Of a stretch of 26,179 bases of DNA, positions 181 to 24,612 are shown piece after piece. Source of the stretch: a virus; the IMG/VR virus record IMGVR_UViG_3300045135_000408, positions 1 to 26,179 of that record; one strand, written 5' to 3'. A model generated the notes under the pieces. The model saw only the letters and a program-made list of their open reading frames with translations, ran no database searches and had not been told where the DNA came from. Position numbers and translations under genes: made by a program. Within the stretch, counting starts at the first letter, position 1, and each line of letters opens with the position of its first letter.

Positions 181-1044
181 CTACTCTGACTTTTCTTCAG
201 ATGAAGAACTTTCTTCTTTAGCATCAAGTTCTGCTTGCTTCTTATCTACATCAGATAGAGTAACATTACTATTTACGCTATTTTCATTTACCATACCTCT
301 AGCATCCATCACTTTTGCAATTCTTTCTTCAAGTGCAAGTTTTGTTGATAGTGGTAGTGCATCTTCGGATTCAAGATGTGGTGAGAATGCAATTTTCTTT
401 GCTTGCTCTTCATCAATATCTCTAAGAATATCTTCTGGAGAATTAGGATAAATTCTCATATATTCTTCTGATTGTACCATCCAATGTTTGTTTTCAGGTT
501 TAGGGAAACGCTTCTTAACAGCAAGTCTTCTTGCTTGCAATGCATCAACACCTTCTTTATTACCTTCGATGATATATTCCCACAATGCTCTAATCATTGC
601 ATCTTCTCTTGGATAGTTTGCCGCTCTCAGGTCAATATATGATTGCTGGTCAAGAATATCTTGAACATAAGGGCGCAACTTTTTTAATTCTGCGAATGTT
701 GGTTTAGGTAGTGGATTATCTTCATCCCATTCTAGTGCTTCAATAGCACCTGGATGTAATCCGCTGTCGCCTACCTTCCATTCTGCTCCTGGCACTGTGT
801 TAAGTGTCCATTCGCAAGTTGGATAAAGAATACCCAATATTACTGAGAGATTATCTGCCCTACGAATTCTAGAATGATACTCTGTAAGAATTGCTTGCTC
901 TTCATCACTTGCAACCAATCCCAAAGCACCTTTTTCCATAATCGCTTCGATTTCATCTCTAGTAGGAGGACCTTTTCTAATCAGTTCGTCTACTGATTGC
1001 GGTCCAGCAGTTTTTTTAACTGCGTTTACTAAACTGTCTGCCAT
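181..1044 (-). CDS. 287-residue protein, possible tail-fibre chaperone or assembly protein
   Basis: Unlike its beta-rich neighbours, this protein is mostly helical and highly charged. Its middle contains a block beginning YPREDAMIRALWEYIIEG and ending in KKRFPKPE. This resembles the 'YP...D.L..lW....G......I..VK..fPKP' pattern of small fibre-associated and chaperone-like phage proteins; that is resemblance from memory, not a search. The C-terminus is a low-complexity Ser/Glu tail (ESSSSEEKSE), which would be disordered. I prefer the ATG at 1044 over the TTG at 1050 because AGGAG lies seven bases before the ATG. Two late-promoter boxes lie 40-55 bases upstream, so it can be expressed independently of the fibre genes before it. 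An alternative is a virion protein of unknown role. Confidence 0.75.
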   Translation of the reverse strand: MADSLVNAVKKTAGPQSVDELIRKGPPTRDEIEAIMEKGALGLVASDEEQAILTEYHSRIRRADNLSVILGILYPTCEWTLNTVPGAEWKVGDSGLHPGAIEALEWDEDNPLPKPTFAELKKLRPYVQDILDQQSYIDLRAANYPREDAMIRALWEYIIEGNKEGVDALQARRLAVKKRFPKPENKHWMVQSEEYMRIYPNSPEDILRDIDEEQAKKIAFSPHLESEDALPLSTKLALEERIAKVMDARGMVNENSVNSNVTLSDVDKKQAELDAKEESSSSEEKSE

Positions 1045-1082
1045 TTTCAAACTCCTGTTAAAATTCTGTTAGATAACATCTA

Positions 1083-1101: not shown

Positions 1102-1668
1102 TTAAACACCATCAAAGGTTACTGAACCTGATTGTACTCCATATTCTGGTAAAGCAATTTCTTTACAAATCATGTAAAAATCATTTACTATAAAATCTCT
1201 ATCGTTGTTGTCGTTTTTAACTCTCACTTCAAATGTTGTTTTATTTGTTGATTGAGGTATAAAAGCATGATTGATACCAATTGAACTTCTAAAGTTTCTA
1301 GAATGGCCTAATCTTCTTGTTCCTGCAACTCTGTCGTTTCTACCACCAGTATGTGAATATTCATTGCCGTATGGGTGTAATCCATTATATCCAGATTGTT
1401 CGTATTCTATAATTCCGTTTACAAATAATGCGGCAGAATATCTATCAGACGAGTTGTCTGTACTACTGCTATCTCCCAATGAAAAGGATGCGTTTGTTTC
1501 TAAAACACTATTTGAATATTGAGGAGTGATATCTAAAGTCTTATTAGCAACAGTAGAGTATGAATTTGAAGTTGAACTGTGAGTCCAAACACCTTCATTT
1601 TCAACAAACTTATATTGAACTAGAAGTGACCCTTTTACCGCTCTTTTTGTAATTTTTTGCAATGCCAT
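1102..1668 (-). CDS. Array paralog 5: small fibre/adhesin-like virion protein (188 aa)
   Basis: Fifth and last member of a tandem family. It shares the N-terminal signature (MALQKITKRAVKGSLLVQYK against MALTKVTKHIVYG in others), the 'TPQYS.S..E' strand near residues 48-56, an 'FVNGI.EYEQ' strand near 82-91, and a C-terminal 'F....KEIA' strand. Its central block (YSHTGGRNDRVAGTRR, about residues 104-119) is shared almost exactly with paralog 4, making the two sisters. GINHAF at 131-136 matches the NHxH position of other members. The protein is beta-rich and has no membrane segment. GAGGG precedes the ATG. Tail-tip or fibre-attached adhesin is inferred from position downstream of two fibre genes. 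Confidence 0.8.
   Translation of the reverse strand: MALQKITKRAVKGSLLVQYKFVENEGVWTHSSTSNSYSTVANKTLDITPQYSNSVLETNASFSLGDSSSTDNSSDRYSAALFVNGIIEYEQSGYNGLHPYGNEYSHTGGRNDRVAGTRRLGHSRNFRSSIGINHAFIPQSTNKTTFEVRVKNDNNDRDFIVNDFYMICKEIALPEYGVQSGSVTFDGV
1312..1361. repeat. Near-identical DNA island, copy in paralog 5
   Basis: Fifty bases match 1879-1928 at 49 positions, with a perfect run of 40. The only difference is T at 1321 against C at 1888. It encodes the shared SHTGGRNDRVAGTRR block; flanking DNA of the two genes is clearly more diverged. Confidence 0.85.
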
Positions 1669-1692
1669 GATAACCCTCGTAGAAAACTTATT

Positions 1693-2235
1693 CTACTGGC
1701 CACCAGAAGATGCTAATCCAATAGAAATTTCTTTTGCCAAGAAGAAGAAATCACGAATTCTCATACTTCTTGTTGTGCTATTCTTCACACGAACATCCAT
1801 ATCTAATTGATTTGTAGATGCTGGTGTATATGCATGATTAAGACCCATAGCGGCAGTGTGATTTCTAACATGACCATGTCTTCTTGTCCCTGCAACTCTG
1901 TCGTTTCTACCACCAGTATGTGAATATTGGTTTCCATATGGTGCTGGACTACGAACATCTGCCTGTTCATACTCATTTATCCCATTAACAAAGAATGCCG
2001 CAGAAAATACATCAGATTGACTATCAACATTACTAATATCTCTAGATGTCATACTTGCCTGCTCTTCAATAATCGAATCTGCATATTGAGGCGTCATTAC
2101 AATATTCTTATTGTTAATTTCAGTATATGTACTCTGTGATGCAGTTAAATCAAAGTCTCCTGCATTTTCAGTATACTTAAACTGGACTAAGAGTGATCCA
2201 TGTACAATGTGTTTTGTTACTCTAGTTAATGCCAT
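1693..2235 (-). CDS. Array paralog 4: small fibre/adhesin-like virion protein (180 aa)
   Basis: Fourth tandem member, starting MALTRVTKHIVHGSLLVQFK. It keeps the family landmarks: 'TPQYADSIIE' near residues 48-57, 'FFVNGINEYEQ' near 81-91, and a strand near the C-terminus (FFFLAKEISIG). The central block is SHTGGRNDRVAGTRRHGH, giving an HxH at residues 120/122, followed by GLNHAYTPASTN. It is closest to paralog 5. The tail after the last strand is a short Ser/Gly stretch. GAGGA lies shortly before ATG, and the gap to paralog 3 is only 12 bases. Function is inferred from the fibre context; I know of no characterised member. Confidence 0.8.
   Translation of the reverse strand: MALTRVTKHIVHGSLLVQFKYTENAGDFDLTASQSTYTEINNKNIVMTPQYADSIIEEQASMTSRDISNVDSQSDVFSAAFFVNGINEYEQADVRSPAPYGNQYSHTGGRNDRVAGTRRHGHVRNHTAAMGLNHAYTPASTNQLDMDVRVKNSTTRSMRIRDFFFLAKEISIGLASSGGQ
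1879..1928. repeat. Near-identical DNA island, copy in paralog 4
   Basis: Partner of 1312-1361, 49 of 50 bases identical and in the same position within the gene. Confidence 0.85.
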
Positions 2236-2247
2236 TTTTTTCCTCTC

Positions 2248-2778
2248 TTACGTCAAGTTATAGTGGTCGCCAGCAATTTCACTGATAGTTAAAAATCCTT
2301 CAGCAAAATCAATTTGTGGACCATCGCCTTCAACTGCTACATAAACTCCGACTGCTTGTGCGTTAGTTGTTCCCGGAGCATGAATATGGTTCATATAAAT
2401 CGCTGAACTAAACCCATAGTGTCTCCAGTTTTGTCTACCATTGTTTTCACCAAACTGTTGGTTCTGATGAGTGTGTCCACCACTTCTGTTCGGGTTATTA
2501 CCAATAATACCTCTATAGAAATATTCATCGCTACCATTTACAACAAATTTTGCGGCGCCTGCGTGATAACCAGTGGTGATGCCAGTTGAATTTTGTCGTG
2601 CCGAACCAGTACATACTATTTCTAGATGACTATCACTATACTGTGGTGTTACCGATATATCTGAACCCCACTGACTGTAAGTCGATGATGTCTGAGACTT
2701 ATCTGCCATGTCTGCGCCATAGTGTGCTATAAGAACGGATCCATATACAATATGTTTTGTTACTTTAGTTAGTGCCAT
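2248..2778 (-). CDS. Array paralog 3: HxH-containing fibre/adhesin-like virion protein (176 aa)
   Basis: Third tandem member, starting MALTKVTKHIVYGSVLIAHY. Family landmarks are 'TPQYSDSHLE' near 44-53 and 'FVVNGSDEYF' near 78-87. The centre holds GGHTHQNQQFGENNGRQN with HxH at residues 102/104, followed by YMNHIHAPGTTN with HxH at 131/133. The C-terminus (FAEGFLTISEIAGDHYNLT) is nearly the same as in paralog 2, so these two are sisters. A metal role for the HxH pairs is inferred by analogy with the T4 gp37 tip, where HxH motifs bind iron. AGGG precedes ATG. Confidence 0.8.
   Translation of the reverse strand: MALTKVTKHIVYGSVLIAHYGADMADKSQTSSTYSQWGSDISVTPQYSDSHLEIVCTGSARQNSTGITTGYHAGAAKFVVNGSDEYFYRGIIGNNPNRSGGHTHQNQQFGENNGRQNWRHYGFSSAIYMNHIHAPGTTNAQAVGVYVAVEGDGPQIDFAEGFLTISEIAGDHYNLT
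2427..2475. repeat. Near-identical DNA island, copy in paralog 3
   Basis: Forty-nine bases match 2979-3027 at 47 positions, including a perfect run of 34 (2437-2470). It encodes the HQNQQFGENNGRQN block. Confidence 0.85.
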
Positions 2779-2802
2779 TTATAAAACCCTTTTTCTATAT
2801 CC

Positions 2803-2810
2803 TATTTATG
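2803..2810 (-). promoter_or_regulatory. Possible weak late promoter box CATAAATA
   Basis: One base off TATAAATA. It overlaps the stop codon of paralog 2 and lies about 25 bases before paralog 3. An internal late start within the array is possible but unproven. Confidence 0.3.
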
Positions 2811-3327
2811 TAAGATTATATCCTTCACCTGCGAGTTCAGTTAAAGTCATGAATCCTTCTGCAAATTCGACTGTAATAGAATTTGAAGTTGCAACTTCAC
2901 ACTGCACAGTCTGTCTATTCAATCCTGGTCGATGCATATGGTTCATGTAAATTGTTGATCCTTGACCGTATATCTGAAAGTTTTGTCGACCATTGTTTTC
3001 ACCAAACTGTTGGTTCTGATGACTGTGACTTCCGCTTCTCTGTTGATACCCCCCAATTACATCATTAATAATATATTCTTGTAATCCATTTACCATAAAT
3101 CTTACTTTACCATAACCAGTTCCTGCTGGCATATTTGTAGTTATTCTAGCACTACCAGTTAGTATTATTTCTAAATAACTATCATCAAACTGAATATCAA
3201 TGTCACTTGCATTACCCCATGTTACAAAAGATGAACTTGAAGTAGTTCTATCTGTTAAATCTGCTCCATAATGTGCAACTAAGACTGCTCCATATACAAC
3301 GGTCTTTTTCACCTTTTTCAGTGCCAT
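2806..3327 (-). CDS. Array paralog 2: HxH-containing fibre/adhesin-like virion protein (173 aa)
   Basis: Second tandem member, starting MALKKVKKTVVYGAVLVAHY. It has the family's beta-strand pattern, with 'FDDSYLEIILTGSA' near 47-60 and 'FMVNGLQEYI' near 77-86. The central block is SHSHQNQQFGENNGRQN, with HxH at 101/103, and YMNHMHRPG has HxH at 130/132. The C-terminus, FAEGFMTLTELAGEGYNLT, matches paralog 3. A purine-rich AGAGAG precedes the ATG. It lies 11 bases after paralog 1. Host-contact function is inferred. Confidence 0.8.
   Translation of the reverse strand: MALKKVKKTVVYGAVLVAHYGADLTDRTTSSSSFVTWGNASDIDIQFDDSYLEIILTGSARITTNMPAGTGYGKVRFMVNGLQEYIINDVIGGYQQRSGSHSHQNQQFGENNGRQNFQIYGQGSTIYMNHMHRPGLNRQTVQCEVATSNSITVEFAEGFMTLTELAGEGYNLT
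2979..3027. repeat. Near-identical DNA island, copy in paralog 2
   Basis: Partner of 2427-2475, with 47 of 49 bases identical. Confidence 0.85.
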
Positions 3328-3338
3328 ACTACACTCTC

Positions 3339-3866
3339 TTAGTTCACATAAGCATTACCTGGTGTACCAAGTGTGATACCACCAGCAACTTCTTTCGTCA
3401 TTAAAAATCCACTTCTACATTCTAAGTTTCCACCAGCATTAGCATTAGTTCTGTTACATTTAACAGTAGCAGTTTGCAAGTTTGTAGTTCCAGGTAGATG
3501 TCTATGATACATGTTTACAGATTTACCTTCTCTACGACCAGCGGCGCTACTATATGACCTATCAAAGGTTGAAACAGAAGCGGCATCATTTACTGTATAT
3601 TCTGTGGTTCCATTAATCTCTAACACCATATTTACTCGAGGACTATCATATACACCCTGGTTAGGTGCAGAACTATCTGCTTGATGTGACATAGTTCCAC
3701 TCATACGAACTTCCATGATTGAATCCGAATATTCTGGTGTCATGGTAATGTTGTCCCATTCTACAGCAGTTGTGCTTGTTGTGTCTAAGTTCGACATATC
3801 TTTATAACGAACTTGAACGATAGTTGCTCCATATACAATGTGTTTTGTTAATTTTGTTAATGCCAT
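3339..3866 (-). CDS. Array paralog 1: small fibre/adhesin-like virion protein (175 aa)
   Basis: First tandem member and the most divergent in the middle. It starts MALTKLTKHIVYGATIVQVR and keeps 'MTPEYSDSIMEVRMSG' near 42-57, 'VLEINGTTEYTV' near 81-92, and MYHRHLPGTTN near 119-129. The last aligns with the NHxHxPGTTN motif of paralogs 2 and 3 and has HxH at 121/123. A 'GRREGK' segment takes the place of the GRNDR/GRQN segments of the others. GAGGA stands five bases before ATG. It follows the 797-residue fibre gene by 12 bases, so it is probably cotranscribed with it. Confidence 0.8.
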   Translation of the reverse strand: MALTKLTKHIVYGATIVQVRYKDMSNLDTTSTTAVEWDNITMTPEYSDSIMEVRMSGTMSHQADSSAPNQGVYDSPRVNMVLEINGTTEYTVNDAASVSTFDRSYSSAAGRREGKSVNMYHRHLPGTTNLQTATVKCNRTNANAGGNLECRSGFLMTKEVAGGITLGTPGNAYVN

Positions 3867-3878
3867 TTTCCTCTACCC

Positions 3879-6272
3879 TTAAATAAATCTTACAACTTCT
3901 AGTTTTGTAGCATCAACTGGAATCGTTGTCATATACAACTTATTACCAATAATGATATACTGTGTCGGGTCTTGCAATTCACCCTCTAAGTAAACCAAAA
4001 GTTTTTGTTCGTTATATGTATCTTGCACTGTACCAAACGAGTGCTTTTCAAATACAAGGTCACCCAAATCAAAAATCTGCTGAGACCCATTACATGTAAA
4101 TATTAGTTTTCTAGTTTCTAAATCAGTTTCACTAGAAGTTCCTGTGAAAGTAGTGATATCAAAAATACCTTGAACTTCAATAAATGCATCTTGAGAAGGT
4201 GCAGTATTGAATGTTAATGTAGTGCCACTCAATGCATATTCTTCTTCTCTTAGAACTTTACCATTTACTACTACCATAACACCAAAGTCTGCAGGTGTAG
4301 TTGTTGATGTAAACGGAAGTGTAAATTGTGTCGCAGAACCAGTGCCTCTAAACATTGCTTTTCTTCTGTTAGCGGCGGCAACTTCTGCACACTTCAATAC
4401 TTTACAATCGATGATTGATCCAAACGCAGGATTTTCATCAAAGAAGCACAATTTATTTTTTTCTACAAAATAGGAATCATCATTTTGATATACACCATTG
4501 ATACTAACAATGACACAATCATCTGATGATGGGTGCAATTCTATTGTTCCAGTTGCGGCGTCCATTAGACGAAGGAACTGATGGTCACCAGTACCTGTTG
4601 ATGCTACGCCAGTCATTGTCATTTGTTTAGCATCTTGTGTATTATGTCCTGCGGCAGATGTTAAAGCAGAGAAGAAAATCATATCAACTGCAACTGACTG
4701 GTCACTTGAACCAGGATTACCCCCTAGTGTTAGCGTTGTTCCAGAAATTGACCATGTTGATTTATCTTGAATAATACCATCAACAATAACTAAGAACATT
4801 TCTTCATTTGCGGCGTTTGATGACATTGAACTGTCTATAATTGATCCATTAAGTCTGTTGTTTAGATTTGTTGATCCATTAGCGGCATTGAATGCGGCAG
4901 TATTACCTGGAGCAGTCCATCTACATCTTGCTATACTGTTATTAGAAATAAGTATAGTATCATCATTTCCAACCAGTTGTTGTATAGACCTGATTTCAAC
5001 TTTCGCCGCTTGGTCATCAACACCAACATATGAACCTAAATCAATAACCTGATTTGATGCTCCTGAACCTTCGTTAAAATCTGCAGACATTACAGTGTAT
5101 TCATTAAACGGTTGAATAATACCATCTACTGATACAATCAGATTTCCTGAGGCCGCATTAAGTGCGTAAGTCGTTTCTTTTTGATATGTGTTATTTGTAG
5201 AATCCCAGTGATGATTGTTTACGTCAAAATATCTTTGTCCGTTTCTATCTGTGACTACAGTAATAACTACTGTTGCATCATTTGTAGAACCACTTTGAAT
5301 AATAGTTAGAGTTTCTGGTGCGTTATAACCATATGCAAAGTCACCACCACCTAAGTCTGTATTGAGTGTGACACCAGTTACTACACCACCTGATGCAGTG
5401 ATGTTCACTCTCATACCTTGACCAGAACCACCTCTTGCTTCTAGATTGTTTGCAGTTGTATATCCTGAAGTACCATTCGCACCACTAGTGATAGTTGTGG
5501 GTACACCAGAGATGTGCTTCGACATTTGTACTCGTCTGTCGAGGTTAGTGTAAGTTGTACCTTTAAGACCTCTAAACTCAATCGGAGTGTTTTCAGTTAA
5601 TGCACTTTCATGAACATACTTGTATTCGTTTACAATCGCATATTCATTATGATTAGATATGACTGATGCACTAGCACCCCCTCTAAACACAAGAAGATTG
5701 TTCTCATTATCATTCTTCTGATGCATAGGTACAATGTTTTGTAGACCGTCTGTGATTGCTCTAGTTCTTTTAATTGATAAGTTATTAGATGCTTGCACGT
5801 TACCTGATGGGTCAATAACATCATAGATACCACGAATTTCTATTTCTTGATTGACAGATGGAGTTTGAGTTAATACAACTTTGCTTCCAACTACAACATA
5901 ATCTTTATCTTGAAGAACATCTCCATTCTTTGATACAATAATTGAATATTCATCTGGTGGAGTGAACCCACATGAGAATATTCTCTGAGAACCATCTGCT
6001 ACATAAGTCTTACTTCTTACTGATTGAAATTCAGATGCTTTAAGTGCTTGAATGATAACTTCTGCGCCGTTTGCTGGAGCGTCTGACAACAGTATAGTAT
6101 TTGGATGCTTAAATACGAAATCTTGGTCGTTTAGATAAACACCATCAATGTATACAGACAGTTGATTATCGCTGATTGGGATAAATTCTGTTCTATATAT
6201 CTTTCTCACACCATCGGCAATAAACCTCTGGGTTCTGATATTATTTCCTTTAGTTCTTCCAATGTAAGGCAT
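3879..6272 (-). CDS. Repeat-built tail fibre protein (797 aa)
   Basis: The protein is assembled from about eight related beta modules of 65-100 residues, near residues 12-78, 87-150, 165-236, 360-430, 436-536, 562-630, 636-706 and 720-797. Each has a pattern like 'ADG....F.....p....L.VyvDGv.q....Y.v.g..l.l...P..g..i.v'; examples are VYIDGVYLND, VSVDGIIQPF, VSINGVYQND and VVVNGKVLRE. A glycine-rich insert near 255-340 (GGSGQGMRVN, GYNAPETLTI) resembles modules in gp8 and the 985-residue protein. The N-terminus MPYIGR is typical of attachment ends of fibre proteins in marine phages. No signal peptide or transmembrane segment is seen. The closest role is a tail fibre or fibre shaft; which organelle it joins cannot be told. 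Confidence 0.75.
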   Translation of the reverse strand: MPYIGRTKGNNIRTQRFIADGVRKIYRTEFIPISDNQLSVYIDGVYLNDQDFVFKHPNTILLSDAPANGAEVIIQALKASEFQSVRSKTYVADGSQRIFSCGFTPPDEYSIIVSKNGDVLQDKDYVVVGSKVVLTQTPSVNQEIEIRGIYDVIDPSGNVQASNNLSIKRTRAITDGLQNIVPMHQKNDNENNLLVFRGGASASVISNHNEYAIVNEYKYVHESALTENTPIEFRGLKGTTYTNLDRRVQMSKHISGVPTTITSGANGTSGYTTANNLEARGGSGQGMRVNITASGGVVTGVTLNTDLGGGDFAYGYNAPETLTIIQSGSTNDATVVITVVTDRNGQRYFDVNNHHWDSTNNTYQKETTYALNAASGNLIVSVDGIIQPFNEYTVMSADFNEGSGASNQVIDLGSYVGVDDQAAKVEIRSIQQLVGNDDTILISNNSIARCRWTAPGNTAAFNAANGSTNLNNRLNGSIIDSSMSSNAANEEMFLVIVDGIIQDKSTWSISGTTLTLGGNPGSSDQSVAVDMIFFSALTSAAGHNTQDAKQMTMTGVASTGTGDHQFLRLMDAATGTIELHPSSDDCVIVSINGVYQNDDSYFVEKNKLCFFDENPAFGSIIDCKVLKCAEVAAANRRKAMFRGTGSATQFTLPFTSTTTPADFGVMVVVNGKVLREEEYALSGTTLTFNTAPSQDAFIEVQGIFDITTFTGTSSETDLETRKLIFTCNGSQQIFDLGDLVFEKHSFGTVQDTYNEQKLLVYLEGELQDPTQYIIIGNKLYMTTIPVDATKLEVVRFI

Positions 6273-6287
6273 CTGTTATCTCTCTCT

Positions 6288-6623
6288 TTACGGTGTAAAT
6301 TCTAGTACATTGACAACAACATCCAAAGAACTTGCTCTTGATGCTTTTACTTTCACTATTTCTCCAGTGTTCAAATTGATTGGTCGCTCAAGAACTGCTC
6401 CCAAGTTTGCTTGAACAGGATATAAGTATGCTACATGAAATTCATTACCTGCACCATCATCAATAACTATATTCACATACAAATCTTCAAGGTTGTATGT
6501 GTTTGTGATGTAAATCGAATGAATAACTGAGTATTTACCACTCGGTACAGTGTACAATGTACTTCCTGACCCTGTGGCAGATGCTCCACTCACTTTTGTA
6601 TTTTTGAATATACCTGTTGCCAT
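6288..6623 (-). CDS. Small beta-sandwich-like virion protein, copy B (111 aa)
   Basis: Paralog of the gene at 8359-8694: same length, and the same order of strands and turns. Here the pattern is 'STLYTVPSGKYSVIHSIYITN', then 'YVNIVIDD', 'GAVLERPINLNTGEIVKVKA' and a final 'SSLDVVVNVLEF'. Such 'YTVP.G....I..I...N' proteins are common as small virion proteins in marine phages; their exact role is unknown to me. It has its own late-promoter box 24 bases upstream and a good ribosome site (AGGA). The two copies flank the 565-residue fibre gene, so an adaptor or collar for that fibre is plausible but inferred. Confidence 0.7.
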   Translation of the reverse strand: MATGIFKNTKVSGASATGSGSTLYTVPSGKYSVIHSIYITNTYNLEDLYVNIVIDDGAGNEFHVAYLYPVQANLGAVLERPINLNTGEIVKVKASRASSLDVVVNVLEFTP

Positions 6624-6646: not shown

Positions 6647-6654
6647 TATTTATA
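6647..6654 (-). promoter_or_regulatory. Late promoter box TATAAATA
   Basis: Exact match on the minus strand in the 35-base gap between the 565-residue fibre and the 111-residue gene. Expected initiation leaves a short leader that still contains AGGA. Confidence 0.75.
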
Positions 6655-8358: not shown

Positions 8359-8694
8359 TTAAATGTCCTCTAATATACTAGCGATTACATTCAGTGATGA
8401 TGCTGTATTTGACGTTACTGCAAGTTTATCGCTCTCTGCTAGAACAATTTTCTGTCCACTAATAAATGAGAGTGTCGAGTTCGCTGGTATGTTTAGATTG
8501 TTTCCAATCACAACATATGAAGTTGCAGAGTTATCATAAATTTCAACATCAACTGTAATAGCACTAGAATGAACATTAGCGAGTTCTAGACTAATAATCA
8601 TACTACGCTTTCCTGTTGCAGAAGGAGCAGTATACAAATCAGTTCTAGCGGTCCCAACGCCACTTGCTATACTATTTTGAAAGTCGTTTGCCAT
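8359..8694 (-). CDS. Small beta-sandwich-like virion protein, copy A (111 aa)
   Basis: Paralog of the gene at 6288-6623, with equal length. Its pattern is 'TDLYTAPSATGKRSMIISLELAN', 'VDVEIYD', 'LNIPANSTLSF', 'IVLAESDKLAVTS' and a closing 'SSLNVIASILEDI'. Predicted all-beta, no cysteine, no signal peptide. It lies directly before the 565-residue fibre with only two bases between them, which suggests a product made in step with the fibre. Function is unknown; adaptor or capping subunit is inferred from the flanking arrangement. Confidence 0.7.
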   Translation of the reverse strand: MANDFQNSIASGVGTARTDLYTAPSATGKRSMIISLELANVHSSAITVDVEIYDNSATSYVVIGNNLNIPANSTLSFISGQKIVLAESDKLAVTSNTASSLNVIASILEDI

Positions 8695-9568: not shown

Positions 9569-12500
9569 TTATACCGCCAATGCTATAACTCTCAAGTTTT
9601 TAATTTTAGGTACTGCACAGAATGTAGTTGATTTGAATACAAACTTAACAGCAATAGTTGAGAATTCAGGTAGTCCTTCAACCAAATGTGTTCTTTCTCT
9701 AAAAGTATTTTCGTTTTCATCAGCAACATCTGAAATTTCTGTTGCAGTCAGTGTATAAGGTATTTCATTGAATTGCTTTTCAGAACCATCAGTCAATACT
9801 TTATAATACACTTCCATCAACGCACCATTTGGTCTATTCATTTCATAAAGAATTTTAATAGCAGTACATGGATTCTCTAGAGTAAATCTTCTAGTCACAT
9901 AGTTTGCTAAGTTTGTCGCTCCAGATGGTGCAATATCATCTAAGAACTTCTCATGCTGTACTATAGTGACTGCATTAGACGCACTTTCGTTAGTACCAGG
10001 TGCTGGTGTCACAGATACAGTTGCAGTAGTATCATCATTGAGATAGTCTGAAATCAGATATTTCTTATTGTTATTTGCGTTTGATGCACCACTCACTGTA
10101 ATAAACTTACCTATATCAAGTGTGTCAAATAGACCTCTTGCAGTAGCATTTGTTGTAGTGATATTACTATTAGTATTTGAGAATGCGACATTAGTGTTTG
10201 CATTCACTGCAGTTCTATCATCATGCGTGGTCATATTTACATCAGTTTCTACTAAGTTATCAATTCTGTTTGCTACCATACAAAGTGAAACACGTTGACT
10301 ATCAATCATCGGTGAAACAAATTCATTCAGTGTATTCATTGTTGCTTTCAATTGTGCAGAATAACCTAGTGATGGTTGATTATCAATTGAGAATATGACT
10401 TTTCTTTCAGTCTGATATACATTACCATTATCAGGTACAGGTAAATAACCAGTGAATGTACCTGCGCTGTTAGCAATATTCATATCATATGTAAGAGAGG
10501 TGTCAGCAAATCTAATGTTAGTTATAGATGGTTGAACAATATCAGCAACGATATTTCTTCTTGCTTGAATATCATTACCACCTACTGTATCTGCAGACAA
10601 TCCAGATACACCTCCAACGACATTACTGCCAGTAACTTCAATTACATAATTATCTGCAGTTACGGGAGCAACAACTGTATGAGAACCATTTAGTTCTGTC
10701 TCGGGAATACCATTTGTCGTTGAGTTAGCACCATAGAATCCTGTCGCCACACCATCAATTACAACAGTGTCGCCAGCAGTGAATCCATGATTTCTTTGCG
10801 TTACACGAATTTTGTTTGTATTTGGTGCAGTTTCAAATGGGTCTGCCTGTAGAACTGTGAAACCATTTCTCACATTATTAAACTCAATTGTAGAAACATT
10901 TGAAACAAATGATGCACGATGAATTGTCATCTTGATATCTCTTGTCTGATGAGGTGTCCATGTACCCCCATTTTGAGATAAGAACATAGTACCAGTCAAT
11001 GGGTTTCTAGAAACAACTCTATTATCACCCAAATTCAGACCACCAAGTTCTGAGTAGTAAACTCTACATCCAGGTTCATCAACTTTAATTAGTATCGCAT
11101 ATGTAACATCTTGCGCCATAAAGACAGGACTATCAAAAGTTACTGTAGTAGCAACAGATGCATCTGCCGATACACTAACATCTGCAGGATTAATAATTTT
11201 CTGTGCTAGTATTTTCTGTCCAGGGAACCCATCTTTTGTATTTACAACTTGAATGATGATTGGTCGTAAACCAGCACTTTCAAAGAACAAGTCAACTTTA
11301 GTCATCATCACACCATCTAGACAATTAGAAATAACAAAGGTTTGTGCCAGTGGATCGTGACCGCCCCAACCGCCGCCTCCGCCGCCATCTCCGCTATCAC
11401 CATTATCGCCTGTAGATGGAGGTGGTTGTATTCTAGAAGTTGCTTGGAAACGAGTAGACCCTGTGATGTTTCTGGTAATTTCACGTTCATCTTGTACACG
11501 GTCACGAACAAAGTTTGCTTGTCTGAGAGACAATATTGTTTCTTCTCTTGTTTCGTTAATCCCTGTTGCGCTAAAAATCTTTTCTGCTTTTGTACTATGA
11601 TTACCAGTAGTGATACTATTTGTAGTATTATCAATCAGACGTAAAGTTCTGTCACCAGTTCTAAACTTAACTGTATCTGTGTTAGGTATGACGAATACTC
11701 CAGTAAATACACCATCATCATCTGTAATTCTATCATCATTAAACTTTTTCAAGTTTTTATAGATATCAGTTGATGTTGCTGTCGATACACCATTAACTGC
11801 GCTTATTGTACACTGGTTCTTGACACCACTTGCATTATCAACAGAACCTGTCAGAGTATCATTAACTGCAAATCCACCTTTTCTGTTTGCAATGTGAATT
11901 ACAATTGGAAGACCATTAGCATTATCACTATTATCAGGTCCTTGATAAGTTACAACTGCAGATGCTTGAATACGCTGTGCAGTACCTCCAGAAGTGTATG
12001 CTGTTATCGCACTAACTGGTGATGCGGCGGTATCTGCATTTACGATTGTAAATGTATTTGCACTAGTGTCTACACTTTCAACAAAGAAATATTTGAATTC
12101 ATCACCAACTTTGTTTAGTTCTGTTGAACCTCCAATATTTGAAAATTCTACAATATGACCTACTGCAATACCATTCACACTCGCTACTGTGATTGTAGTT
12201 GTGTTACCAACTTGTACTACATTTGAAACTGAAGTTGCTGTATGTGCTACGTTCTTAATAACATCACCAACTGCAAAAGCGGCAACTGGTTGTGCAGTAT
12301 TTGTTAGTGGGTTTGCAAAAGTACCAAATGTTCTTGCATCATCACTATCTGCATATGAACCAGGGTCTTGCAGTGGGAAGAAGTTAAAGTCGCTTCTGTT
12401 TGTAGAAGTTACTGTCAACTTGTCATCAGGTTTAACATACGCTCCAACATTTACATTATCAAAGAATGCATTTACTTTTGTTCTTGGTTTCATACCTTCT

Positions 12501-15500
12501 GCATGAATATGAACAGGCACTTCACGCATGAATGGAATCATAGAAATATCTACAATTCTATCACCTAATGCTTTATCTACATTTTCATTTACTAGAGTAG
12601 TTTCAACACCAACATTTATTTGTCCAACTTGTTGTGTACCAGTTTGTTGTAGAAGAACACCATTCCATCCACCTTGCTGTGAAGTACCAATTCTTTGCTC
12701 ACCAGTAAAGATTTGTTCTCCAAACCACTGGTCTTGCCAACCTTCCCATACTGTTCCTTCAACTCCAATTTCATCTGCTAAGAATTGAATTGCGTCAAAG
12801 TTATTATCATCAACAACTACGAGGTCAGGTCTACGAGTTGTATCTTTCCAGTCATCAGATGCAGGTGTTAATTCTAATTCACCAGTGAATGCGGCAACTT
12901 TATATGCATTCACTTCCATATGGTCTGTAGCATACGGATTCTCTAGATATTTTAATTCATTATAGTCCAGTGTGATAATACCATCTCTGTGTTTTTTATA
13001 GAACTTGCCAGTTCTTTCAACATCAGTTGCTAATGTTTCTACCATACTAACAATTTCACTATGCGCCATTGGACGTGCGAGTTTACGCTTTCTATCTACA
13101 GAAATTCTATAATCTGGAGAACCTACGTTACCAATACCATGACCTTGAAAGTTATCTACAATAAATCCATTCTTCAATCTAGGATTACCATCAGCATCTT
13201 CAACAAGTAAATCTGTCGTTGCTTTTTCAAGAAGTGTCAATGCACTAATCTCTTCAAGAGTTCTAATTCTGGTCTCTAGTTGACCAATATCTTTCATAGT
13301 GTATCTTCTATTCTTCAATTTTCTAGCAACTACTTCACTTGTGTTAATAACATAAGGTTTATAAGTCACTTCAAAAAGTGTCATTGCTTTGCCAAGGTCA
13401 AGAGGTGGTCTAGGATTAATATCAGGAACACCTTTTACTAGTTTGAGTTCACCATCAAAGTTCATTACAATCTTATCGATACGACCAATATAGTAAGAGA
13501 AGTCAGCATCAAACGTAGTACCAAACGATGGAAGTTCTGATTTAGATGAACCAGAAGATGTAAAGTTTACACCAGCATCATCAATTCTAGGTCTAAAGTC
13601 TAAAGCATCTCTCAAGTCAAAAGTTTTACCTGTGCCTTCAGATTTATATTGTGGAATATTTTCATAATCTACAACACCATCATAACTGTCTACTGAGAAA
13701 TAATCACCAGCACCATGTGTGAAGTAATCAAATGTAACAAGTATTTGACCACTAGGTGCAGGTCTTCCAGGTCTTAGTCTGATTGCCGCTAAGTCGTAGT
13801 ATGCGTCTTTCTGTCCAGTATCAAACTCATAACGACTAGTAATGTCTTGGTCACTTGAAGTTGGTGTAGTCGAGAAGTCTGCCGCCATCTTAACAGATTT
13901 TAGAACATACCCGTCTGCTTTGCCGAGAGTAATTAATGTCTTTGTTGCCGCCGCTTCAGTTGTAATTGTAACTGTTTGATTTGTATTAAGTGTCTTTGAT
14001 TTTTCTGCACTATCTGTGCTTGTAATTTTAACAGATGCAATCAAATCAACTGTATCGCCGTTGGTCATTGGACTTGAACTTAATGCGTTTAGACCAGTAA
14101 ATGTTACTGTTCTATCACTCGCACTAAGAGTAATATTCGATGATGTGATATCTAGAATATCACCTGCACTTCTAGCAGAACCACCTGCTGGTGTGTTTAC
14201 AGTAAGAACAAAATCTTGTAGATTTGTAGATGATGCAAAACTTTCGTTAGTTCCAGCACATGTAAACTGTAACTGTTGTGAAGAAACTGCAACTGCAGTA
14301 AATTTACGTCTTACGATATATACAGAAGACAATACGTTATCTGGATTCGCAACACCATCTCCACGAATTTTTCTCATTCTAAAGAAACCAGTATCATAGA
14401 CAAGAAGTTTTCTGTCTGGTCTCACTAGTTCTGCAGACATACGCTTTACGTTACCACCCGAAACTACATTACCTGCGGCAGTTGTTGTGTTAGCAGTTAA
14501 TTCTAAAGTTAAATTGTTTGTTGGATGACCTGTAGCAACTTCACCAATATCTACTTCATTTAAGAAAAGTCTGTCGCCTGCTTGCACCTGAGAATTAAAC
14601 AGAGTACCAACACCAGTAACAGTAGCATCTGCATCTGCAGTTGAGGCAGTTCCACTCAATGCTACAAACTTAGGATTAATATCACACTTAAATACTGCAC
14701 TACCTACGGTCGCATTATCACCAAATGCTCTTGCTTGTCTAGCAAAGTCTTTACCATCATTCATTTGAATATCAAAGATACCCAATTTGAATTTCTTATC
14801 AGATAAAGTTCCTGTATAGTCACCATCATGCAACTGGAATGCTCTCACATTACAAGTACCAATTGATGCTGGAGAACCACCTATAAAGTCATCATAGATG
14901 TGAATTTCTTCAAAATCATCAATCTCTGGCATACTTGTTACATTCTTAACAAGAACAAAGTTACCAGTTGGGGTTTGAATAGGTGTATCAACTACACGAT
15001 TAAATGTTCTAGGTTTATCTGCTTCGACAAATTTAGTAATTTGAGTTTCAATTTCATAACCTTGAACATATGCTTTACCAGGTTCTACACCAAGTGCTAA
15101 TTTATCAGAACTACCGCCATCTGCTGTGGTAAATATACCTCTATTACCACCATTAATTAAATGTTCACGAATATCTAGTTTGAAAGGTTTAACTTCATAA
15201 TCTCCACTCTCATCAAATGTTCGTCTTGCAAATTCTTCTTGAAGATAATTATAGTCTGCTTTCTTTTTAATTTTAGCAATCACACCATTTTCAACTCTCA
15301 CTAGTTCGATAAAGTCAGTATCATCTGTAGCAGTAAGAGACTTCTTTTCTAGTGTTAAAGTTACTTTATAACGATGTGCGCCAGGTGCGGCATAGTTAGA
15401 AGCACCTTGTGCGTTATCTTTCAGTGTAGCATCTTCTTCTGGAGTTGTAGTTGCTTGACCAACTTTGAAACCAACTCTATAAGAAGGATATGGAGAGTAA

Positions 15501-16213
15501 TTGTCAAGAAGTATTGTTTGTGCATCGTTTGCTACAAAAAATCCATTTACAAAGAAAACACCTGCTTGTATTTGAACGGCAGAACCAGCACCTACTGTAT
15601 CATTGTCACCAGCAGTTGCAACAGCACCAGCATCAAATCTATCTGCCGCAGTGGCAGTATTTATTGTACCAGTTGTTAAAAGTGCCGCTGAGATTTCAGT
15701 AGTCTGGTCTGCGGTTAGTTGTGGGTTCTTTGCTTGTGTATTGTCAGCATTAGTAGCAGTTACAGTTTCACCAATTGCAAATGTGTTGGTCGCATTATTA
15801 GTACCACTATCTTCATATTTAATATAGAGTGTTAATGGAGTAGTCGAGGTGGCCGCAAGTGTTCCTATAACTCTCGCTTTAACACCCGTTTCACTACCAG
15901 TGATAACTTTGTTTACAAAATCTGCTCTGTAACTTTCTACGTTTTGAGCATTAAATGTAGATTGTACTTTAATAAAGTAGTATTCACTATCGAATGCAAT
16001 ATCACCAGGAATAACCTGAGAACCTTCTTCGAACATGTGTCGACCAAATCTTTCAATCTGATTTTGTAAAATAGATTGTAGTTGGGTTAACTCTCTCGCC
16101 TGAACAGGAAATCCAGGACGAAAGAGTACCCTTTGAAATTTTTTCGACTTAGCACCAGTGGCACCTTCAAAGTCATCATAATATGGGTCTACATTAAAGT
16201 CTATAACTGCCAT
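9569..16213 (-). CDS. Giant DUF4815-type baseplate/tail structural protein (2214 aa)
   Basis: The N-terminus (VDPYYDDFEGATGAKSKKFQ, then 'FRPGFPVQARELTQLQSILQ') is the hallmark of DUF4815 phage proteins, and conserved segments such as FDLRDALDFRPRIDD lie further on. The middle contains several inserted beta modules: a 'VTGVGTLFNSQVQAGDRLF' type near residue 530-590, and two 'HGF..GD.V...' or 'VGHIVEFSN' modules resembling FCCH-like domains. Near residue 1610 a Gly-rich linker (GDGGGGGGWGGHDPLAQTF) precedes a conserved beta domain. In T4 the genes after gp8 are gp9 and gp10; this protein takes that place but is not recognisably homologous. GGAG lies eight bases before ATG. It is probably an outer baseplate component that links to fibres. 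Confidence 0.85.
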   Translation of the reverse strand: MAVIDFNVDPYYDDFEGATGAKSKKFQRVLFRPGFPVQARELTQLQSILQNQIERFGRHMFEEGSQVIPGDIAFDSEYYFIKVQSTFNAQNVESYRADFVNKVITGSETGVKARVIGTLAATSTTPLTLYIKYEDSGTNNATNTFAIGETVTATNADNTQAKNPQLTADQTTEISAALLTTGTINTATAADRFDAGAVATAGDNDTVGAGSAVQIQAGVFFVNGFFVANDAQTILLDNYSPYPSYRVGFKVGQATTTPEEDATLKDNAQGASNYAAPGAHRYKVTLTLEKKSLTATDDTDFIELVRVENGVIAKIKKKADYNYLQEEFARRTFDESGDYEVKPFKLDIREHLINGGNRGIFTTADGGSSDKLALGVEPGKAYVQGYEIETQITKFVEADKPRTFNRVVDTPIQTPTGNFVLVKNVTSMPEIDDFEEIHIYDDFIGGSPASIGTCNVRAFQLHDGDYTGTLSDKKFKLGIFDIQMNDGKDFARQARAFGDNATVGSAVFKCDINPKFVALSGTASTADADATVTGVGTLFNSQVQAGDRLFLNEVDIGEVATGHPTNNLTLELTANTTTAAGNVVSGGNVKRMSAELVRPDRKLLVYDTGFFRMRKIRGDGVANPDNVLSSVYIVRRKFTAVAVSSQQLQFTCAGTNESFASSTNLQDFVLTVNTPAGGSARSAGDILDITSSNITLSASDRTVTFTGLNALSSSPMTNGDTVDLIASVKITSTDSAEKSKTLNTNQTVTITTEAAATKTLITLGKADGYVLKSVKMAADFSTTPTSSDQDITSRYEFDTGQKDAYYDLAAIRLRPGRPAPSGQILVTFDYFTHGAGDYFSVDSYDGVVDYENIPQYKSEGTGKTFDLRDALDFRPRIDDAGVNFTSSGSSKSELPSFGTTFDADFSYYIGRIDKIVMNFDGELKLVKGVPDINPRPPLDLGKAMTLFEVTYKPYVINTSEVVARKLKNRRYTMKDIGQLETRIRTLEEISALTLLEKATTDLLVEDADGNPRLKNGFIVDNFQGHGIGNVGSPDYRISVDRKRKLARPMAHSEIVSMVETLATDVERTGKFYKKHRDGIITLDYNELKYLENPYATDHMEVNAYKVAAFTGELELTPASDDWKDTTRRPDLVVVDDNNFDAIQFLADEIGVEGTVWEGWQDQWFGEQIFTGEQRIGTSQQGGWNGVLLQQTGTQQVGQINVGVETTLVNENVDKALGDRIVDISMIPFMREVPVHIHAEGMKPRTKVNAFFDNVNVGAYVKPDDKLTVTSTNRSDFNFFPLQDPGSYADSDDARTFGTFANPLTNTAQPVAAFAVGDVIKNVAHTATSVSNVVQVGNTTTITVASVNGIAVGHIVEFSNIGGSTELNKVGDEFKYFFVESVDTSANTFTIVNADTAASPVSAITAYTSGGTAQRIQASAVVTYQGPDNSDNANGLPIVIHIANRKGGFAVNDTLTGSVDNASGVKNQCTISAVNGVSTATSTDIYKNLKKFNDDRITDDDGVFTGVFVIPNTDTVKFRTGDRTLRLIDNTTNSITTGNHSTKAEKIFSATGINETREETILSLRQANFVRDRVQDEREITRNITGSTRFQATSRIQPPPSTGDNGDSGDGGGGGGWGGHDPLAQTFVISNCLDGVMMTKVDLFFESAGLRPIIIQVVNTKDGFPGQKILAQKIINPADVSVSADASVATTVTFDSPVFMAQDVTYAILIKVDEPGCRVYYSELGGLNLGDNRVVSRNPLTGTMFLSQNGGTWTPHQTRDIKMTIHRASFVSNVSTIEFNNVRNGFTVLQADPFETAPNTNKIRVTQRNHGFTAGDTVVIDGVATGFYGANSTTNGIPETELNGSHTVVAPVTADNYVIEVTGSNVVGGVSGLSADTVGGNDIQARRNIVADIVQPSITNIRFADTSLTYDMNIANSAGTFTGYLPVPDNGNVYQTERKVIFSIDNQPSLGYSAQLKATMNTLNEFVSPMIDSQRVSLCMVANRIDNLVETDVNMTTHDDRTAVNANTNVAFSNTNSNITTTNATARGLFDTLDIGKFITVSGASNANNNKKYLISDYLNDDTTATVSVTPAPGTNESASNAVTIVQHEKFLDDIAPSGATNLANYVTRRFTLENPCTAIKILYEMNRPNGALMEVYYKVLTDGSEKQFNEIPYTLTATEISDVADENENTFRERTHLVEGLPEFSTIAVKFVFKSTTFCAVPKIKNLRVIALAV
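11365..11400 (-). other. GC-rich patch coding the glycine linker of the giant protein
   Basis: A run of GGC/GGA/GGT-type codons stands out in otherwise AT-rich DNA. It stays in frame and marks the boundary before the DPLAQTF domain. Confidence 0.6.
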
Positions 16214-17648: not shown

Positions 17649-17656
17649 TATTTATA
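17649..17656 (-). promoter_or_regulatory. Late promoter box TATAAATA upstream of gp8
   Basis: Exact match on the minus strand within the 51-base gap before gp8, just after the stop of the 985-residue gene. Expected leader is about 31 bases and contains GAGAGGA. Confidence 0.75.
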
Positions 17657-23019: not shown

Positions 23020-23027
23020 TATTTATA
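23020..23027 (-). promoter_or_regulatory. Late promoter box TATAAATA abutting the gp25 start
   Basis: Exact match on the minus strand. With T4-like spacing (box from about -13 to -6), initiation would fall on the A of the gp25 ATG, giving a leaderless transcript. It may also serve gp6 and genes beyond. Confidence 0.65.
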
Positions 23028-24604: not shown

Positions 24605-24612
24605 TATTTATA
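24605..24612 (-). promoter_or_regulatory. Late promoter box TATAAATA upstream of gp5
   Basis: Exact match on the minus strand overlapping the stop of the 128-residue gene. Expected leader is about 13 bases and contains the AGGA ribosome site of the gp5 gene. Confidence 0.75.

Follow-up and report, generated by a model that had tools for sequence, protein, structure and literature searches.

As read from their sequences, the paired copies in a five-gene array of a T4-like phage undergo localized gene conversion at one central loop, and the array itself looks like a fixed set of three genes (A, B and C) plus paired extra copies. The window analyzed here is the complete 26,179-nucleotide stretch of IMG/VR record IMGVR_UViG_3300045135_000408 (positions 1 to 26,179). 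The initial annotation had described five consecutive open reading frames of 175, 173, 176, 180 and 188 aa, and all five were found on the minus strand where it had placed them (Table 1). Their kinship is beyond chance: with the 175-aa protein A as the query, a search of the window recovered the other four genes (E-values of 1e-16 to 7e-10), and in an alignment of the five proteins B1, B2, C1 and C2 are 30-35% identical to A. Two further details of that description require amendment. The motif TPxYSDSxxE is not a universal strand, as the 173-aa B1 protein reads IDIQFDDSYLE at this position. Similarly, a ribosome binding site is clear for the 175-, 180- and 188-aa genes (GAGG or GAGGG) and weaker for the 173- and 176-aa genes.

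Table 1. Array genes, loop tracts and bordering genes in the window
Feature	Position	Strand	Description
A	3339..3866	-	175-aa TNF-like protein (predicted fold), no loop insert; core N-terminus MALTKLTKH
B1	2806..3327	-	173-aa paralogue, accessory copy; diverged N-terminus MALKKVKKT
B2	2248..2778	-	176-aa paralogue; core N-terminus MALTKVTKH
C1	1693..2235	-	180-aa paralogue; core N-terminus MALTRVTKH
C2	1102..1668	-	188-aa paralogue, accessory copy; diverged N-terminus MALQKITKR
Shared loop of B1	2974..3048	-	residues 94-118
Shared loop of B2	2422..2496	-	residues 95-119
45-nt converted tract in C1 (YSHTGGRNDRVAGTR)	1882..1926	-	residues 104-118; 44/45 bases identical to C2
Matching 45-nt tract in C2, probable donor	1315..1359	-	
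VrlC-like protein	9569..16213	-	2214 aa; upstream border of the host-recognition cluster
Fibre-like protein	3879..6272	-	797 aa; directly upstream of A, 12 bases away
289-aa protein	181..1050	-	annotated without function; downstream of array; SD-ATG start near 1044, listed start TTG

The minus strand of the window carries a T4-type baseplate run encoding gp5-like, gp25-like and gp6-like proteins, a 452-aa wedge protein and the VrlC-like protein, which has 38-43% identity to its counterpart in Pelagibacter phage HTVC008M. This run is followed by small fibre proteins, a 565-aa tail fibre, a 111-aa protein, the 797-aa fibre-like protein, A-B1-B2-C1-C2 and the 289-aa protein. In longer loci of related phages, the 797-aa fibre and the array always precede an orthologue of the 289-aa protein (215-300 aa), a protein of approximately 130 aa (131 aa), gp13, gp14 and gp15, which places the array between VrlC and the neck genes. 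This is the interval spanned by the pelagimyophage "host recognition cluster" (PMC7029224). The 797-aa protein is the immediate neighbour of A in every examined locus that reaches that far and is a candidate docking partner of the array proteins. The same region holds a second set of paralogues, two 111-aa proteins (6288-6623 and 8359-8694) that flank the 565-aa fibre and both match phrog_1276. The sub-lineage of L023, L024 and L028 differs downstream of the array in that the 215-aa and 130-aa genes are separated by an additional gene for a 135-aa protein (MSYPxxEIASAGNIFSRMM..VGHxHxFDHITLL). The T4-type late-promoter motif TATAAATA is present in seven copies in the window, all on the coding (minus) strand and mostly no more than 60 bases upstream of a gene (sites include 1083-1100, 6647-6654, 17649-17656, 23020-23027 and 24605-24612); approximately three copies would be expected over both strands, and none of 100 shuffled sequences attained seven. 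The sequence CATAAATA lies upstream of B2 at 2803-2810.

When IMG/VR was scanned with the alignment of the five proteins, 23 loci were identified, all with array genes; by sequence, these 23 contigs belong to one uncultured T4-like clade. An iterative profile search found 105 family members among these loci and the window. Scans with divergent sub-alignments identified no further contigs, and the 131-aa neighbour used as a query recovered the same clade alone. Elsewhere the family was not detected: no DNA or tblastn match to A, B2, A of L024 or B of L023 (the last two searched up to an E-value of 1) was found among the 50,697 phage records of INPHARED, Pfam and PDB sequence and profile searches with the array proteins were empty, no array relative was found in the bacterial genomes of the GTDB collection, and a direct PHROG scan of array members gave no confident match. 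The sparse PHROG matches obtained were weak and mostly to unrelated names (such as "endonuclease", E-value: 0.03), and were taken as chance. Based on gp6 and gp13, the nearest isolates are HTVC008M, Mosig and Melnitz (approximately 42-46% identity), which carry other genes at the array position and lack the array. In one locus of the clade, the A gene is broken into two frames (L014:8001-8527) by either a frameshift or a sequencing error.

In a tree of 79 array proteins, three lineages (A, B and C) are resolved, which bears out the two sister pairs (second with third and fourth with fifth) and the singleton of the initial annotation. The number of array genes in related phages, a point which that annotation had raised, is three, four or five. 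Fully readable arrays have the order A-B-C (L021 and L023), A-B-B-C (L020) or A-B-B-C-C (the window clade, L016-L019 and L024); L022 and L025 are apparently A-B-C, with contigs cut inside A. In every complete array, A, B and C are each represented by exactly one copy that starts with MALT[K/R]xTKH. Among the N-termini scored, with copies truncated at contig ends or broken in A set aside, this tag is carried without exception by A, by the C-adjacent B and by the B-adjacent C, while it is absent from the first of two Bs and the last of two Cs. Gene order and gene types are therefore fixed: A, B and C are always there, and extras are always a B before B and a C after C. This does not support the proposal that the array consists of interchangeable ligands. 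The alternative of subunits for a hetero-oligomeric tip is somewhat favoured, because the A-B-C core is invariant and has a common N-terminal tag.

One possible form of such a hetero-oligomer has as its minimal unit either a mixed ring or a C1q-like heterotrimer of A, B and C. In alternative assemblies, B1 would stand in for B2 and C2 for C1, and loops would be homogenised because both members of a pair fill one position. The single tagged A, B and C of each complete array, the three-gene arrays of L021, L023 and probably L022 and L025, the TNF/C1q-like fold predicted below and the equal loops of paired copies are all consistent with this model; nevertheless, three homotrimers on equivalent docking sites predict an identical gene grammar, and we regard the heterotrimer or ring as rather unlikely. 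A related proposal, which we consider a little less likely still, is a host-contact tip made of three obligatory chains (A, B and C, as a C1q-like heterotrimer) and an optional second B and C, in which exchange of short tracts between the tandem genes would synchronise the receptor loops of each pair as they evolve; a receptor-binding loop would then undergo concerted evolution within one genome, with no retroelement involved.

In the tree, B-B and C-C pairs cluster according to the phage lineage and not according to their position in the array. A single ancient duplication giving rise to B1, kept as a clade across lineages, was rejected by the AU test, even when the loop was left out. Together these results indicate either that the same pattern of duplication has recurred or that old pairs have been homogenised, bodies included. 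B1 and C2 in general evolve faster than B2 and C1.

An unexpected signal of exchange between paired copies is found in a central His/Asn/Gln/Arg-rich loop that is present in B and C and absent from A. The five proteins had been described as differing in their centre. This is true between A, B and C but not within pairs, where the centre contains the block that is most conserved at the DNA level. The loop is common to the pair within one phage and different between lineages: it reads HQNQQFGExNGRQN in the window clade, FYNPRFSQHNVRQ in L016-L019 and RVRNxRxNQHDFQQ in L020. In nine window-clade genomes, B1 and B2 have a nucleotide identity of 0.88-0.89 in the loop and 0.43-0.75 elsewhere, and it is at the loop that within-genome identity exceeds between-genome identity the most (+0.08 for B and +0.13 for C). 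Identical residues in the B loop use the same codon at a frequency of 0.82 within genomes, compared to 0.63 between genomes and 0.63-0.65 for orthologues (permutation p = 1e-4); for the C loop these values are 0.72, 0.60 and 0.64-0.65, respectively (p = 9.5e-4), these single-window p-values being uncorrected for the scan of approximately 69 sliding windows by which the loop was located. Outside of the loop, B has no such excess (0.50 both within and between genomes) and C has a mild one (p = 0.0035) that is weaker than in the loop. In an exact test with one genome for each of six lineages, the observed pairing was the best of 720 for each pair (p = 1/720, 0.0014).

These patterns point to gene conversion, as joint selection on the proteins would not match synonymous codons. 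Within the converted tract, paralogues of one genome are more alike than between genomes, synonymous sites included. With respect to the 45-nt tract shared by C1 and C2 of the window, C1 of close relatives such as L007 carries a different allele while C2 of L007 resembles that of the window, so C2 is the likely donor. Paired copies with a common loop run counter to the idea that copies diversify from one another, a second respect in which an interchangeable array is not supported. We also considered whether the variation in the loop could be written by a diversity-generating retroelement or another form of templated mutagenesis instead of conversion between copies. Some variable positions of the loop do switch among N, S, G, D, T and A, as in AAY-based diversification. 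We consider this explanation to be highly improbable for two reasons. First, no reverse transcriptase (PF00078) was found in ten clade records, which may be partial and of which two exceed 100 kb. Second, the copies have identical synonymous codons rather than A-specific change.

The array proteins are predicted to adopt a TNF/C1q-like jelly roll. AlphaFold2 models of B2 (pLDDT 86) and C2 (pLDDT 77, with parts of the loop below 50 in the monomer) are all-beta. Their main PDB matches in Foldseek are the TNF-like lectins PLTL and BC2L-C, the Pgp3 C-terminal domain and the lambda gpJ fibre tip, with further matches to a phage baseplate cup, a cyanophage short-tail-fibre domain and the IBDV capsid jelly roll; TM-scores are modest (about 0.35-0.7, with query-normalised values lower for C2). 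Matches in BFVD include many small phage proteins. A profile of the array family was also aligned by hhalign over 126 columns with a profile of 63 C-terminal tip domains of the tail fibre family phrog_6942 (positions 554-707 of 708), with a probability of 94% and an E-value of 1.5e-7; control profiles, either reversed or with shuffled columns, did not exceed 1.5%. On this profile evidence, the array family is distantly related to a widespread domain found at the end of tail fibres in marine phages. The array proteins themselves are free-standing and not fused to a fibre C-terminus. Free-standing relatives also occur in Melnitz, where two adjacent proteins are weak profile relatives of the array and match the C-terminal end of phrog_6942. 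The two Melnitz genes, annotated as hypothetical, lie a short distance upstream of the gene for the small terminase subunit (115107-116167; L030:33108-34168 in our set) and relatives of them are encoded in 248 IMG/VR stretches.

In a comparison of L007 with L017, identity is 34-53% for the array proteins, 74-78% for gp13-15 and 40% for the 565-aa fibre. The role of tail-tip or fibre-tip ligand suggested by the initial annotation is thus supported indirectly by the TNF-like fold, the homology to fibre C-termini, the position in the host-recognition cluster and the fast evolution relative to the neck genes. A jelly roll need not bind a receptor, and the array might instead encode decoration or assembly proteins of the baseplate, collar or whisker without receptor contact, the homogenisation being chance recombination at a spot where the DNA is conserved. 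TNF-like jelly rolls are known also in non-adhesive structural proteins, which counts against an adhesin reading; the Foldseek matches include jelly rolls from a baseplate and from the IBDV capsid, and the locus lies between the baseplate/fibre block and gp13, like the gp12-wac region of T4. Because relatives of these proteins form tail-fibre ends, the rate of evolution is comparable to that of the 565-aa fibre and conversion is focused on one loop in both pairs, we judge a purely structural role to be quite unlikely.

The explanation that we favour, and hold to be reasonably probable, is that, in a marine T4-like (Kyanoviridae-like) phage, the array encodes free-standing TNF/C1q-like proteins that serve as adhesin heads on the tail fibres. 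The five jelly-roll proteins would most likely assemble as trimers. Through their near-identical tag, A, B2 and C1 would all attach to a single partner, probably the 797-aa fibre, with B1 and C2 being accessory copies with altered tags. The polar, His-rich central loop of B and C, putatively exposed at the distal face, would be the probable surface of contact with the receptor. Short-tract recombination between tandem copies, possibly carried out by a phage recombinase, would equalise the loop within a pair while it changes between lineages.

Diversification of phage adhesins is usually ascribed to swaps of fibre ends, duplication of boxes and retroelements. Among the papers searched, no relevant one on tail-fibre paralogues that undergo gene conversion or concerted evolution was found. 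That one loop is kept alike in pairs while the rest diverges points to the loop as the functional contact, and it is predicted that paired copies recognise the same ligand or share the same assembly. The strict A-B-C core and common tag offer a compact, expressible system for studying how multi-subunit fibre tips are built in uncultured marine phages.

Several known systems resemble parts of the array. In T4, a single short fibre gene and a single fibritin gene precede gp13; we take the gp12-wac region to be the place equivalent to that of the array, but it is not known to contain tandem TNF-like paralogues. PLTL of Photorhabdus and the N-terminal domain of BC2L-C, which are among the top Foldseek matches for both models (TM-scores normalised to target of about 0.55-0.7), are small glycan-binding jelly rolls. 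In contrast to these lectins, with which no sequence similarity was found in PDB profile searches, the array has a phage gene context, and sugar binding by its products is only putative. The tail fibre gp24 of Pam3 also has a TNF-like domain (PMC9608196), but it is a single gene with a helical shaft and a chaperone and no paralogue array, and is not among the best 50 PDB matches listed for the array models. The pelagimyophage host recognition cluster has the same VrlC-to-neck position and the same hypervariable character as the array locus, although the main text describing it mentions neither paralogues nor C1q (PMC7029224). Another counterpart is the phrog_6942 tip domain, which has the jelly-roll signature GxVLQ...ITPxYxxSK...SPxTTSAxTY in common with the array at approximately 16% identity; to this the array adds the MALTKxTKH tag and, in B and C, the central loop. 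The Melnitz proteins QZI94920 and QZI94921 are free-standing copies of this domain encoded by two adjacent small genes, but they are located before terminase, whereas the array lies before gp13 in a fixed A-B-C order.
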